Part shown: piece by piece, positions 19,046 to 22,398 of the stretch
Position numbering within the stretch: position 1 is the stretch's first letter
How the letters are laid out: every line of letters begins with the position of its first letter
Source: Dysosmobacter segnis
GTDB lineage: Bacteria > Bacillota > Clostridia > Oscillospirales > Oscillospiraceae
Length of the DNA: 60,670 nucleotides
Assembly: GCF_014297285.1 (NCBI RefSeq)
Contig: NZ_JACOQI010000019.1
Location: 1 to 60,670 of the forward strand
Direction: 5' to 3'
The notes under the pieces: model-generated
The model's database searches: none
Told to the model about the DNA's origin: nothing
Seen by the model: the letters and a program-made list of their open reading frames with translations, nothing else
Translations under genes and position numbers: made by a program

Positions 19046-19906
19046 TTAGTCAACGGCGATGACGGCACCGTCAAAGTTTTCGGCGATGTAGTTCTTCACG
19101 GCATCGGAGTGCAGGGCCTCGGCCAGAGCCTGGATGGCGGCGTTGTTCTCGTTGCCCTCTTTGCAGACCAGCACGTTCACATAGGGGGAGTCGGAGGATT
19201 CCAGAGCCAGAGCGTCCTCAACGGGGTTCAGACCGGCGCCCAGCGCATAGTTGGAGTTGATGACGGCGAGATCCACCTCGCTGGCGATGCTGGGGATGGT
19301 AGCGGCTTCCACCTCGGTGAAGGTCAGGTTCTTGGGATTCTCCACGATGTCCTTGGGGGTAGAGGAGAGGTTGGAGTCGTCAGCCAGCTTGATGAGACCC
19401 TGAGCTTCCAGCAGCAGAAGGGCACGGCCTTCGTTGGTGGCATCATTGGGGACGGCCACGGATGCGCCGTCAGGCAGGTTGTCCAGAGAGTCGGACTTGC
19501 CGGCGTAGATGCCCATGGGCTCGATGTGGACGCCGGTGACGCTCACCAGATGGGTGCCGCGGGTGGTGTTGAAGTCATCCAGATAAGGGACGTGCTGGAA
19601 GTAGTTGGCGTCCTCATCGCCGTCCTCCACGGCGGTATTGGGCACCACATAGTCGCTGTACTCGTGGATCTGCAGGTCGATGCCCTGCTCGGCCAGAATG
19701 GGTACGCACTGCTTCAGGATCTCGGCGTGGGGGGTGGGAGAGGCAGCTACGTTCAGAGTGACGGTCTCCTGGGGCTCCGCAGGCTGCTCGGTCTGCGCGT
19801 CATCGGTGGTGTCGGCCTTGGCAGAGTCATCGGACTTGCTGCCGCAGGCGGTGAGGGACAGGGCCAGCGTCAGGGCCAGCAGAGTGGCAAAAATCTTGTT
19901 TTTCAT
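19046..19906 (-). CDS. metQ: Methionine ABC transporter substrate-binding lipoprotein
   Basis: 286 residues. The signal peptide ends in a lipobox, SLTAC, with Cys21 as the lipid anchor. The body matches the NlpA/MetQ family (LNVAASPTPHAEIL, NYFQHVPYLDDF, AVPNDATNEGRALLLLE). It binds methionine outside the membrane and delivers it to MetI/MetN. The ATG at 19906 follows GGAGG by 8 bases. It is last in the metN-metI-metQ order, after a 115-bp gap. Confidence 0.92.
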   Translation of the reverse strand: MKNKIFATLLALTLALSLTACGSKSDDSAKADTTDDAQTEQPAEPQETVTLNVAASPTPHAEILKQCVPILAEQGIDLQIHEYSDYVVPNTAVEDGDEDANYFQHVPYLDDFNTTRGTHLVSVTGVHIEPMGIYAGKSDSLDNLPDGASVAVPNDATNEGRALLLLEAQGLIKLADDSNLSSTPKDIVENPKNLTFTEVEAATIPSIASEVDLAVINSNYALGAGLNPVEDALALESSDSPYVNVLVCKEGNENNAAIQALAEALHSDAVKNYIAENFDGAVIAVD

Positions 19907-20021: not shown

Positions 20022-20759
20022 TTACTTGGTGTGGGCCAGACGGGAGAGCAGGTCGAAGGCGGTGAGTTTGCCTGCGCCGGTATCCAGCCGTTTGTCGATC
20101 TTCTTGGACAGCCAGCCGAACAGGGACTGAACAATCTGCACCATGATGATCAGGATGACCACCGTTACCCACATCACCGAGGTGATGAACCGCTGGTGAC
20201 CGTACCGCACGGCGATATCGCCCAGACCGCCGGCGCCTACGGTACCGGCAATGGCGGTGTAGCCCAAAATAGTTACGATGGAAATGGCTCCGCCTAATAC
20301 CAGAGAGGGCTTGGCCTCCGGCAGATAGACCTTCCGGATGATCTGGCAGGTGGACGCGCCCATGGACTGAGCGGCCTCCACCACGCCGGCGTCTACCTCT
20401 GCCAGAGAGGTTTCCACCATGCGGGCGATGAAGGGGGCGGCGGAGACCACCAGAGGCACGATGGCGCCCTTGACGCCAATCTTGGTACCCACCACCAGCT
20501 TGGTGAAGGGCATGATGGCCACCATCAGGATGATAAAGGGCACGGAGCGGCCGATGTTGACGATCCAGCCTAAGATCTGATTCACGGTTTTGCTGGGGCA
20601 GATGCCGTGGGGCTGGGTAACGGTGAGGGCAACGCCCAGAGGCAATCCCAGCAGATAGGCGAACAGGGTGGAGATCAGCACCATCACCAGCGTATCCCGG
20701 GTGCCGGTGAGCAGGATGCCGCCGTATTCCGACCAGAATGCAGAAATGACCTCAAGCAT
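20022..20759 (-). CDS. metI: Methionine ABC transporter permease
   Basis: 245 residues with about five membrane segments and the EAA-type cytoplasmic loop (EVDAGVVEAAQSMGASTCQIIRKVYLPEA). It forms the channel of the MetNIQ importer. The ATG at 20759 has GGAGGTGG upstream and lies 8 bp inside the 3' end of metN, so the two are translationally coupled. Confidence 0.92.
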   Translation of the reverse strand: MLEVISAFWSEYGGILLTGTRDTLVMVLISTLFAYLLGLPLGVALTVTQPHGICPSKTVNQILGWIVNIGRSVPFIILMVAIMPFTKLVVGTKIGVKGAIVPLVVSAAPFIARMVETSLAEVDAGVVEAAQSMGASTCQIIRKVYLPEAKPSLVLGGAISIVTILGYTAIAGTVGAGGLGDIAVRYGHQRFITSVMWVTVVILIIMVQIVQSLFGWLSKKIDKRLDTGAGKLTAFDLLSRLAHTK

Positions 20760-21795
20760 GATACTCCACCTCCTCTGCGGTGATATTGGGTTGGGAACGG
20801 ATGTAGCTCAGAGCCTTGGCAGCCTCGTTGGGATCGTCCGGCAAAAGCAGGAGCATGGTGCCGAAGGCCTTGCCGTCGATATTCCGGGTGTCAGCGCCCA
20901 GAATGTTGACTTTGACGCCGCACTCGATCGCCAGCGAGGCGATAAGGGGATCGTAGACCGTGCCGCCGTTGAAGGAGACCCGGACGGCCCGGGTGCCTGC
21001 GGGGTACTGCTTAGCGCTGACGCCGCCGGGATACACCAGACGGCGGGCCGCGTCGGTGGCGGGATGGGCGAAGATGTCCTCCACCCGGCCTTCCTCGGCC
21101 ACCTCGCCGCCGTCCAAAATGGCGACGCGGGTGCAGATCTCCTCGATAACGCTCATCTGGTGGGTGATGATGACCACCGTGACCCCCAGTTTTTGGTTCA
21201 GCTCCTTCAAAAGCGCGAGGATGGAATTGGTGGTGGTGGGGTCCAGAGCGGAGGTGGCCTCATCGCAGAGAAGCACCTTCGGGTCCGTAGCCAGCGCCCG
21301 GGCGATGGCCACCCGCTGCTTCTGACCGCCGGAGAGCTGGGCGGGATAGGCACTTGCCTTTTCCTTCAGACCCACCAGATCCAGCAGTTCCAGCGCCTTT
21401 TTCTCGGCCTGAGCCTTGGGTACACCGGAAAGCTCCATGGGGAAGCAGACATTTTTCAGACAGGTCCGCTGCATCAGCAGGTTGAAGCCCTGAAAGATCA
21501 TGCTGATCTTTTTCCGGGCCTGCCGCAGCTCTTGGGGGGAGACGGTACGCATACAGGACTTGCCGTCCGCCTGCTTCTCCATCCAAGTCAGCTTCTGACC
21601 GTTGACGGTGATGCTGCCGCTGGTAGGCCGCTCTAAAAGGTTGATGCAGCGGACCAGCGTGGACTTTCCCGCACCGGAGAAGCCGATAATGCCGAAGATC
21701 TCGCCGTCTCCGATTTCAAGGGAGACGTCCTTGACGGCGTGGACCCCATCGCCGGTATCTCCAAAGGTCTTGCTGATATGTTCCAGCTTGATCAT
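20752..21795 (-). CDS. metN: Methionine ABC transporter ATP-binding protein
   Basis: 347 residues. Walker A GFSGAGKST (38-46), signature LSGGQKQR, Walker B LLCDEATSALD, and a C-terminal NIL domain (about 270-345) that binds methionine and inhibits transport in the E. coli homologue. The ATG at 21795 has AAGGA upstream; longer frames run back into the leader terminator. It is preceded by a methionine-rich leader peptide and an intrinsic terminator, which implies control by methionine supply. Confidence 0.93.
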   Translation of the reverse strand: MIKLEHISKTFGDTGDGVHAVKDVSLEIGDGEIFGIIGFSGAGKSTLVRCINLLERPTSGSITVNGQKLTWMEKQADGKSCMRTVSPQELRQARKKISMIFQGFNLLMQRTCLKNVCFPMELSGVPKAQAEKKALELLDLVGLKEKASAYPAQLSGGQKQRVAIARALATDPKVLLCDEATSALDPTTTNSILALLKELNQKLGVTVVIITHQMSVIEEICTRVAILDGGEVAEEGRVEDIFAHPATDAARRLVYPGGVSAKQYPAGTRAVRVSFNGGTVYDPLIASLAIECGVKVNILGADTRNIDGKAFGTMLLLLPDDPNEAAKALSYIRSQPNITAEEVEYHA

Positions 21796-21819
21796 AATAT
21801 CCTTCTTTCGTTGCTGCGA

Positions 21820-21858
21820 AAATAAAGAGGGCGGAAAGCGTCGCCGCTTTCCGCCCTT
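21820..21858 (-). terminator. Attenuator terminator upstream of metN
   Basis: On the minus strand GGGCGGAAAGCG pairs perfectly with CGCTTTCCGCCC (12 bp, 4-base loop) and is followed by TCTTTATTTT. It lies between the leader peptide stop (21875) and the metN start (21795), so readthrough is needed for expression. Confidence 0.85.
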
Positions 21859-21874
21859 CTGAACAGCATAACTG

Positions 21875-21979
21875 TTACACACAGGAGAGGTTTTTCGCGG
21901 AGGCGCACAAAGGCTTGGGCATGGTCATCATCCCCATGTCCATCATGCACATCATCATACCAAAGCGAGTTACAATCAT
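21875..21979 (-). CDS. Methionine-rich leader peptide of metNIQ
   Basis: 34 codons beginning ATG at 21979 with AAGGAG upstream. Ten codons are Met, nine of them within codons 8-20 (pattern MMMCMMDMGMMTM). The stop is 17 bp before the attenuator stem. The position between a good promoter and an intrinsic terminator is that of a classical amino-acid attenuator peptide: scarcity of charged Met-tRNA would stall ribosomes over the Met codons and alter RNA folding. The Shine-Dalgarno region (GGAGACGCAC) can pair at nine of ten positions with codons 25-28 (plus-strand 21899-21908), an alternative fold that a moving ribosome would break. Confidence 0.8.
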   Translation of the reverse strand: MIVTRFGMMMCMMDMGMMTMPKPLCASAKNLSCV

Positions 21980-22033
21980 GTTGGTGCGTCTCCTTTCCGT
22001 CCCCGGTGTTCGGGTTCCGTTTTCGATGGGCAT

Positions 22034-22062
22034 AGCGTAGCACTGTTGACCGTCCCTGTCAA
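22034..22062 (-). promoter_or_regulatory. Promoter of the metNIQ operon
   Basis: On the minus strand TTGACA (22062-22057), a 17-bp spacer and TACGCT (22039-22034). Transcription would start near 22027, giving a leader of about 230 nt. Confidence 0.75.
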
Positions 22063-22159: not shown

Positions 22160-22213
22160 ATATGAGATAATTGAACGGGAACAGACCGGGACGCTGTCAG
22201 CAGTCCCGGCCTG
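22160..22213. terminator. Hairpin with T-run
   Basis: CCGGGAC pairs with GTCCCGG and is followed by CCTGTTTTTC on the plus strand. No plus-strand gene precedes it; it may shield metNIQ from antisense transcription. Confidence 0.5.
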
Positions 22214-22240
22214 TTTTTCGATTAAGACAAAATGGCATTT

Positions 22241-22300
22241 GCACTCCGGACCGGCCCCATCCGGTCCGGAGTGCGGCGGAGACCTGCGGATCTCCGGCGG
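22241..22300. terminator. Strong hairpin downstream of flavodoxin gene
   Basis: GCACTCCGGACCGG and its exact complement (14 bp) enclose a 6-base loop, with a second small stem (CGGAGA/TCTCCG) beside it. On the minus strand it lies beyond the flavodoxin stop and probably ends that transcript. Confidence 0.6.
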
Positions 22301-22304
22301 GGAA

Positions 22305-22385
22305 AAAGGAAAGATAGGAAAGATAAAAATAGGAAGATAAGGTTTCAGGAAAGATTAGGAAATAAGGAAAGATATAAAAATAGAG
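22305..22385. repeat. Polypurine tract with repeated GGAAAGAT
   Basis: About 80 bp almost free of C on the plus strand, with AGGAAAGAT/AGGAAGAT repeated several times. On the minus strand it is a pyrimidine-rich 3' untranslated stretch just after the flavodoxin stop. Confidence 0.5.
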
Positions 22386-22398
22386 GTGTGTTGAAGGT

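Follow-up and report, generated by a model that had tools for sequence, protein, structure and literature searches.

Methionine genes of Bacillota are known chiefly for control by S-box and T-box leader RNAs, and Staphylococcus aureus reportedly has a Leu-rich attenuator. In attenuators of the trp and his type, an open reading frame (ORF) with control codons, competing RNA pairings and a terminator stand before amino-acid genes, an arrangement that recurs in the locus described here, where the competing pairings are putative. Unlike in that type, however, the control codon of this locus, Met, doubles as start codon, Cys codons are interspersed, and the ribosome binding site (RBS) of the leader may, as judged from predicted folds, join the competing pairings. 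For his genes of Firmicutes, among them those of bacilli, leader peptides are described as T-box replacements in the sections of the source drawn on here (PMC2965389).

Leaders with Met codons have been proposed in Campylobacter and Streptomyces, and the leader described below joins this already proposed class. In Campylobacter jejuni, the Met leader MetL was proposed as an attenuator of metBA (PMC3847290); in excerpts of a later study, a Ribo-seq initiation signal is given for the Met leader, and CJsORF19 (MMYQMR) precedes a gene for a D-methionine transport binding protein (PMC11955535). Both are Met-codon ORFs proposed as attenuator leaders of methionine genes, as is ours, but MetL has 20 residues with three Met and CJsORF19 has six residues, against 6–12 Met in 25–38 residues in the Bacillota leaders, and MetL is reported, in the cited part of these papers, only from C. 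jejuni, C. coli and C. doylei. In Streptomyces lividans, the Met leader metL was proposed for metNIQ, the operon considered here, and likewise interleaves Met and Cys (CMCRRMC; PMC8079986); it differs in its leaderless transcript, its few Met, its non-start Met near the C-terminus and, in the passages cited, the lack of a clear terminator. In Actinobacteria, methionine operons were reported to be devoid of conserved RNA elements, and Cys leaders were proposed, according to the portion cited of PMC1262725. Attenuation theory, in the part of the treatment used here, has transcription terminate when leader initiation stops (PMC1183508), and Met as a leader start codon therefore poses a real question.

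We analysed a stretch of 60,670 nt from Dysosmobacter segnis (GCF_014297285.1, NZ_JACOQI010000019.1, positions 1 to 60,670), hereafter the window. An original prediction for this DNA had called Met attenuation uncommon for a Met importer. After the proposals for C. jejuni metBA and S. lividans metNIQ, a leader of Met codons cannot be called unique. The search for a Met-codon attenuator in Bacillota found none in the titles and abstract openings among the matches listed, subscription papers and preprints aside.

Anatomy of the leader

A promoter-like site, a Met-rich ORF with its RBS and an intrinsic terminator precede, in this order, metN, metI and metQ, all on the minus strand (Table 1). The TTGACA element lies 78–83 nt upstream of the leader start in the window and in five related loci (L054, L058, L062, L068 and L072). 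The promoter had been predicted as consensus-like; TACGCT, however, does not match TATAAT closely, and the site is missing from those reported by a promoter consensus scan. The ORF itself is as predicted, with its own RBS and ten Met codons, at codons 1, 8–10, 12, 13, 15, 17, 18 and 20. Because Met makes up only 2.07% of residues in long ORFs, nine Met in 13 codons are no chance cluster. The terminator was also correctly foreseen, but with a 12-bp stem; the stem, 21857–21845 paired with 21840–21828, has 13 bp and a 4-nt loop, and is followed by CTTTATTTT.

Among the downstream products, MetI scores above its curated cut-off; for MetN and MetQ, methionine-transporter models score best, yet under the cut-offs. 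Upstream of the leader promoter, a GC-rich inverted repeat without clear role lies at window positions 22180–22215, and imperfect purine-rich repeats (aggaaagata/aggaagataagg) occupy 22300–22390, between the promoter and a flavodoxin gene.

Table 1. Features of the metNIQ leader region and operon, in window coordinates
Feature	Position	Strand	Basis
Promoter-like site: TTGACA 22062–22057, 17-nt spacer, TACGCT 22039–22034	22034..22062	-	sequence
Leader RBS, AAAGGAG	21990..21996	-	sequence
Met-rich leader ORF, 34 codons plus TAA, MIVTRFGMMMCMMDMGMMTMPKPLCASAKNLSCV	21875..21979	-	sequence, related leaders
Control-codon block, codons 8–20, nine Met and one Cys; proposed segment 1	21920..21958	-	sequence, predicted fold
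Putative segment 2, codons 24–28	21896..21910	-	predicted fold
Putative segment 3, terminator 5′ arm	21845..21857	-	predicted fold
Intrinsic terminator including U-rich tail	21819..21857	-	sequence scan
metN, methionine ABC transporter ATPase, 347 aa, ATG at 21795	20752..21795	-	best match TIGR02314, 346.7 bits, curated cut-off 499.7
metI, permease	20022..20759	-	NF008049, 213.3 bits, cut-off 212
metQ, substrate-binding lipoprotein	19046..19906	-	TIGR00363, 204.1 bits, cut-off 228.85

T-box and SAM riboswitch searches

Neither a T-box nor a SAM riboswitch matched in the window at Rfam gathering thresholds, and the seven Rfam matches at E values up to 10 include no T-box or SAM element and none in the leader; a T-box consensus was likewise not found upstream of the window's metN. 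These searches uphold the remark of the original prediction that no S-box or T-box element is visible, and they include the SAM riboswitch search that it had named as a test against itself. Two relatives (L198 and L206) have a T-box consensus before metN, yet fall below the Rfam gathering threshold. This threshold is thus strict, and the absence of T-boxes therefore rests on the consensus search, backed for the window itself by the Rfam search at E up to 10. The T-box consensus occurs in none of the 26 Met-leader loci of relatives, and no SAM riboswitch reached the gathering threshold in the 40 loci scanned.

T-boxes are found before metN in close relatives. Genome contigs, one genome per species, were scanned for MetN and the best 80 of 344 loci kept; their upstream regions hold a T-box consensus in 63 cases, a Met-rich ORF in five (L054, L058, L062, L068 and L072) and neither in 12, three of the latter having at most 515 bases of upstream sequence. 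At the gathering threshold, Rfam recognised T-boxes in two sets of 20 loci, at 12 loci of one set and at four of the other. MetN was sought in 99 genomes related to the Dysosmobacter genome that contains L001, and 50 matched at E 1e-90; the 30 best of these loci (74–81% identical), from the closest relatives examined, all have a T-box consensus, not a Met leader. The T-box leaders of Oscillibacter and Dysosmobacter metN resemble the window's leader in being leader RNA before metN, but they read the tRNA directly, without a leader peptide.

Met-rich leaders in relatives

Counting the window's own, we collected 27 distinct leaders that are rich in Met and precede a terminator, 17 before metN, three before metQ, six before metA and one before metY; L231 (four Met) and L213 (MKRFVTTMMMR) are excluded from this count. 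Such leaders are scattered over Oscillospiraceae: L054–L072 are labelled as this family, and the others come from genomes that share with the L058 genome the family or, for L139, the order and, for L275, the class. The Met codon block, whose conservation had been proposed as a check, recurs in divergent leaders before methionine genes. Outside L054, L058, L062, L068 and L072, the leader nearest to the window's is that of L211 (MTHGYGMMMEMMDMAMMPMPTLSRATNSIVSL versus GMMMCMMDMGMMTMPKP). The window's leader had no match in a phage collection.

The 20 best MetN loci (L196–L215) of 60 relatives of G357 comprise 11 leaders with terminator (eight before metN and three before metQ), two with a T-box consensus and seven with neither, among them L213 and also L210, whose sequence starts inside metN; L216–L225, with less than 50% identity over the ATPase part, are left out of this tally. 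Seven of 30 MetA loci have a leader and terminator, one of them weak (L231), as does one of 30 MetY loci. In the G291 group of metA genes (L226–L231), five of six have a leader with at least eight Met in 16 codons, the other residues differing. Among 99 relatives of the L058 genome, 29 of 30 MetN loci were tallied, with 12 leaders (L298 and L300 new, ten known already), six T-boxes and 11 with neither; the thirtieth locus is the known leader L208. The searches of relatives overlap in genomes, so these fractions are not additive.

Pattern searches extended the set. A one-mismatch pattern matched at least 130 of 400 family genomes, including five known leader genomes, and 30 new loci taken from these matches gave two Met leaders (L089 and L094). 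The pattern MxMMxMxM matched 74 of 394 order genomes, with one leader (L139) in 30 loci examined; twenty further regions, chosen by eye among the matches listed for both patterns, added one (L148). In an independent check on 391 class genomes, MMMCM gave 21 matches in 20 genomes, the sole match followed by a terminator being the metN leader L275.

The association with methionine genes was assessed with a detector (at least six Met in 16 codons, an RBS, a terminator and a downstream gene) applied to both strands of 335 loci (1,377,622 bases), a biased set in that many were fetched for methionine genes or Met-codon patterns. For Met it gave 23 distinct detections, 22 of them before metN, metQ, metA or metY and the remaining one (L143) before another kind of gene. 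The same detector gave zero for His, Trp, Phe, Cys, Tyr, Gln, Asn and Lys and one for Ile, controls confined to residues of lower abundance than, for instance, Leu, Ala, Gly, Arg and Ser. Since the leaders were selected by Met count, the Met enrichment is itself no evidence, whereas the gene association is. We note that L213, an 11-codon ORF with a terminator upstream of metN, lies under the detector threshold, so shorter Met leaders may be missed.

The 866 residues that follow the start codons of the 27 leaders include 212 Met and 66 Cys, the background in long ORFs of the loci being 2.07% Met and 1.43% Cys. The Cys content of 7.6% is a fivefold excess (p = 3e-27, binomial, ignoring kinship), and Cys was a selection criterion only in the five-codon pattern that yielded L275. 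It occurs in 24 of the 27 leaders, two or more times in 21, and 44 of the 66 Cys adjoin Met. The leaders have 25–38 codons and, in 22 of 27, 10–15 codons separate the last Met from the stop codon, a gap to be expected if the ribosome has to cover these codons when at the stop, not when stalled.

A second type of leader

Short ORFs with an RBS that end in Arg-Met-UGA (ATGTGA) also stand before methionine or lipoprotein (possibly metQ) genes: upstream of metN at L060, L070 and L074, and elsewhere at L239 (metA), L139 and L167 (metY), and L079 and L205 (lipoprotein genes). The ORF of L070 and L074 is MGIRTRRSRSHERM, inside which the L060 sequence begins; the others are METVVVTRRWLTACAFGLWRM, MTDIFEELVRRNFRFGRM, MKNWLYILRHNWRNGRM, MNLLKLTHANWQFARM and MKTSPKCRQPGVRM. 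At L070 and L074, a predicted hairpin right 3′ of the stop codon would mask the metN RBS, and the Arg-Met-UGA ORF is possibly an arrest peptide. At L139, metY is preceded by two leaders in tandem, a Met-rich one with its terminator and then one of the Arg-Met-UGA type. A scan for such ORF ends gave seven rows in total; L146 ends in Asp-Met and L066 in Arg-Met-UAG, both before other genes.

RNA folding

The RBS region, GGAGACGCAC (21993–21984), is complementary to GTGCGCCTCC (21908–21899) at nine of ten positions, as predicted, although the partner begins at the third position of codon 24 and ends in codon 27 rather than covering codons 25–28. In the predicted fold of the free leader, the RBS prefers codons 31–33 (21888–21883), in the centroid, over codons 24–27, and codons 24–28 (21910–21896) pair within codons 8–13 of the Met block (21957–21943). 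The predicted alternatives for segment 2 are the Met block, the leader RBS or the terminator 5′ arm. Modelling of the stalled form yields a candidate antiterminator in which codons 26–28 and 32–33 would pair with the terminator 5′ arm (21904–21903/21846–21847, 21901–21897/21850–21854 and 21885–21883/21855–21857).

Across 24 leaders, pairing of the RBS-side segment with the stretch after the Met block beats dinucleotide shuffles (Fisher p = 1.3e-9). The duplex energy of the antiterminator is not above shuffles (median p = 0.48, Fisher p = 0.29), and a single antiterminator defined by duplex energy was dropped for want of such an excess; L240, which has no terminator by the rule of the duplex-energy test, was omitted from it. 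With the transcript folded only as far as the terminator 5′ arm, this arm has a predicted pairing, across 25 leaders, of 0.65 for a ribosome stalled mid-block, of 0.51 for free RNA and of 0.32 once the ribosome has reached the stop, the contrast between stalled and stop being partly trivial because an upstream ribosome leaves more RNA free. Compared with shuffled sequences, the leaders pair more in the stalled form (0.65 against 0.57, p = 0.002) and less in free RNA (0.51 against 0.59, p = 0.008); the combined p values, here and for the duplexes, count related leaders as independent. For the window alone, the 5′-arm fold tests are not significant against shuffles (p = 0.27 and 0.09), and the duplex tests gave p = 0.19 for RBS-side pairing and p = 0.70 for the antiterminator. 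The statistical support for the predicted antiterminator is collective and modest.

History of MetN

The top database match of the window's MetN is 99% identical, and a 93% identical protein is labelled Dysosmobacter sp. Three 99% identical relatives (P0001–P0003) are annotated as 376-aa proteins; these gene calls extend into the leader, because the metN start ATG reads as I, K, L. A tree of MetN groups the first five leader loci in one clade (100/100), apart from the window, which sits on a long branch (0.4) in an unresolved fork with mostly T-box Oscillibacter. Residues 1–30 of the window's MetN are nonetheless 57–63% identical to the leader clade, against 40–43% to five Oscillibacter-type sequences; from about residue 121 the protein is nearer to the latter than to the leader clade. 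To judge by this short stretch, the leader and the 5′ end of metN may have arrived jointly, displacing a T-box. At residues ~68–86, the window's MetN is 13 residues longer than P0029 (Dysosmobacter), and an insertion of similar length near this place is present in L001, L002 and L005 and absent from L012, L015 and the leader clade.

A model for attenuation and its rivals

The window combines a leader ORF with RBS, a recurrent cluster of codons for the pathway residue and a terminator before the first gene, as attenuators do. We conclude that the leader is very probably a ribosome-mediated transcription attenuator sensing charged elongator Met-tRNA, possibly also Cys-tRNA. The original prediction of such attenuation is supported at the level of sequence, by the recurrence of divergent Met-codon leaders and the lack of a SAM riboswitch. 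With ample methionine, the ribosome would reach the stop codon and cover the codons after the Met block, letting the terminator (3:4) form. With elongator Met-tRNA scarce, it would stall inside the block and free codons 26–28 and 32–33, which could then pair with the terminator 5′ arm, so that RNA polymerase would enter metNIQ. In an untranslated leader, these codons would be sequestered by the Met block and the RBS, and the terminator would form again. A wider proposal is that the leaders are joint Met and Cys sensors of a regulon that comprises metN, metQ, metA and metY in Oscillospiraceae and replaces T-boxes, elongator Met-tRNA being sensed and initiator Met-tRNA remaining sufficiently charged for translation of the leader to begin; this we regard as possible rather than probable.

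The window and the first five leaders share G at codon 7 and an MGM-containing Met pattern, and within this window type Gly and Pro recur at fixed places (GMMM..MGMM.MPT). Such fixed residues would suit a nascent Met-rich peptide that arrests the ribosome in response to Met, to SAM or to a metal liganded by Met and Cys, in which case the stall itself, not hungry codons, would drive antitermination; Cu(I) is indeed bound by Met and Cys side chains. Arrest peptides usually retain a defined motif, however, and between leader groups, compared by eye, no residue except Met and Cys appears to keep its place, and the number and spacing of Met vary. We consider an arrest peptide improbable.

The weak folding statistics for the window alone would agree with a terminator that is constitutive, or run by an RNA-binding protein or an undescribed riboswitch, the Met ORF merely tuning basal expression. 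Yet the window leader is without an Rfam match, and the leaders of the different groups look unrelated by eye save for their Met codons and terminator, which makes control of this kind very improbable. It is scarcely credible that the ORF yields a small protein with a function of its own, such as a metal or redox buffer, and stands before metNIQ by chance: its composition is rich in Met and Cys, but the sequences diverge widely and the ORF with terminator recurs before four different methionine genes.

Implications

If this lineage uses stalling at Met codons, as the attenuation model holds, one sensing device would have been exchanged for another on orthologous genes. Methionine shortage should also impair initiation of the leader itself, so that the switch must rely on elongator Met-tRNA falling first, which makes a testable puzzle. 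If the model is true, a function could be assigned to the small ORFs that precede methionine genes in gut genomes.
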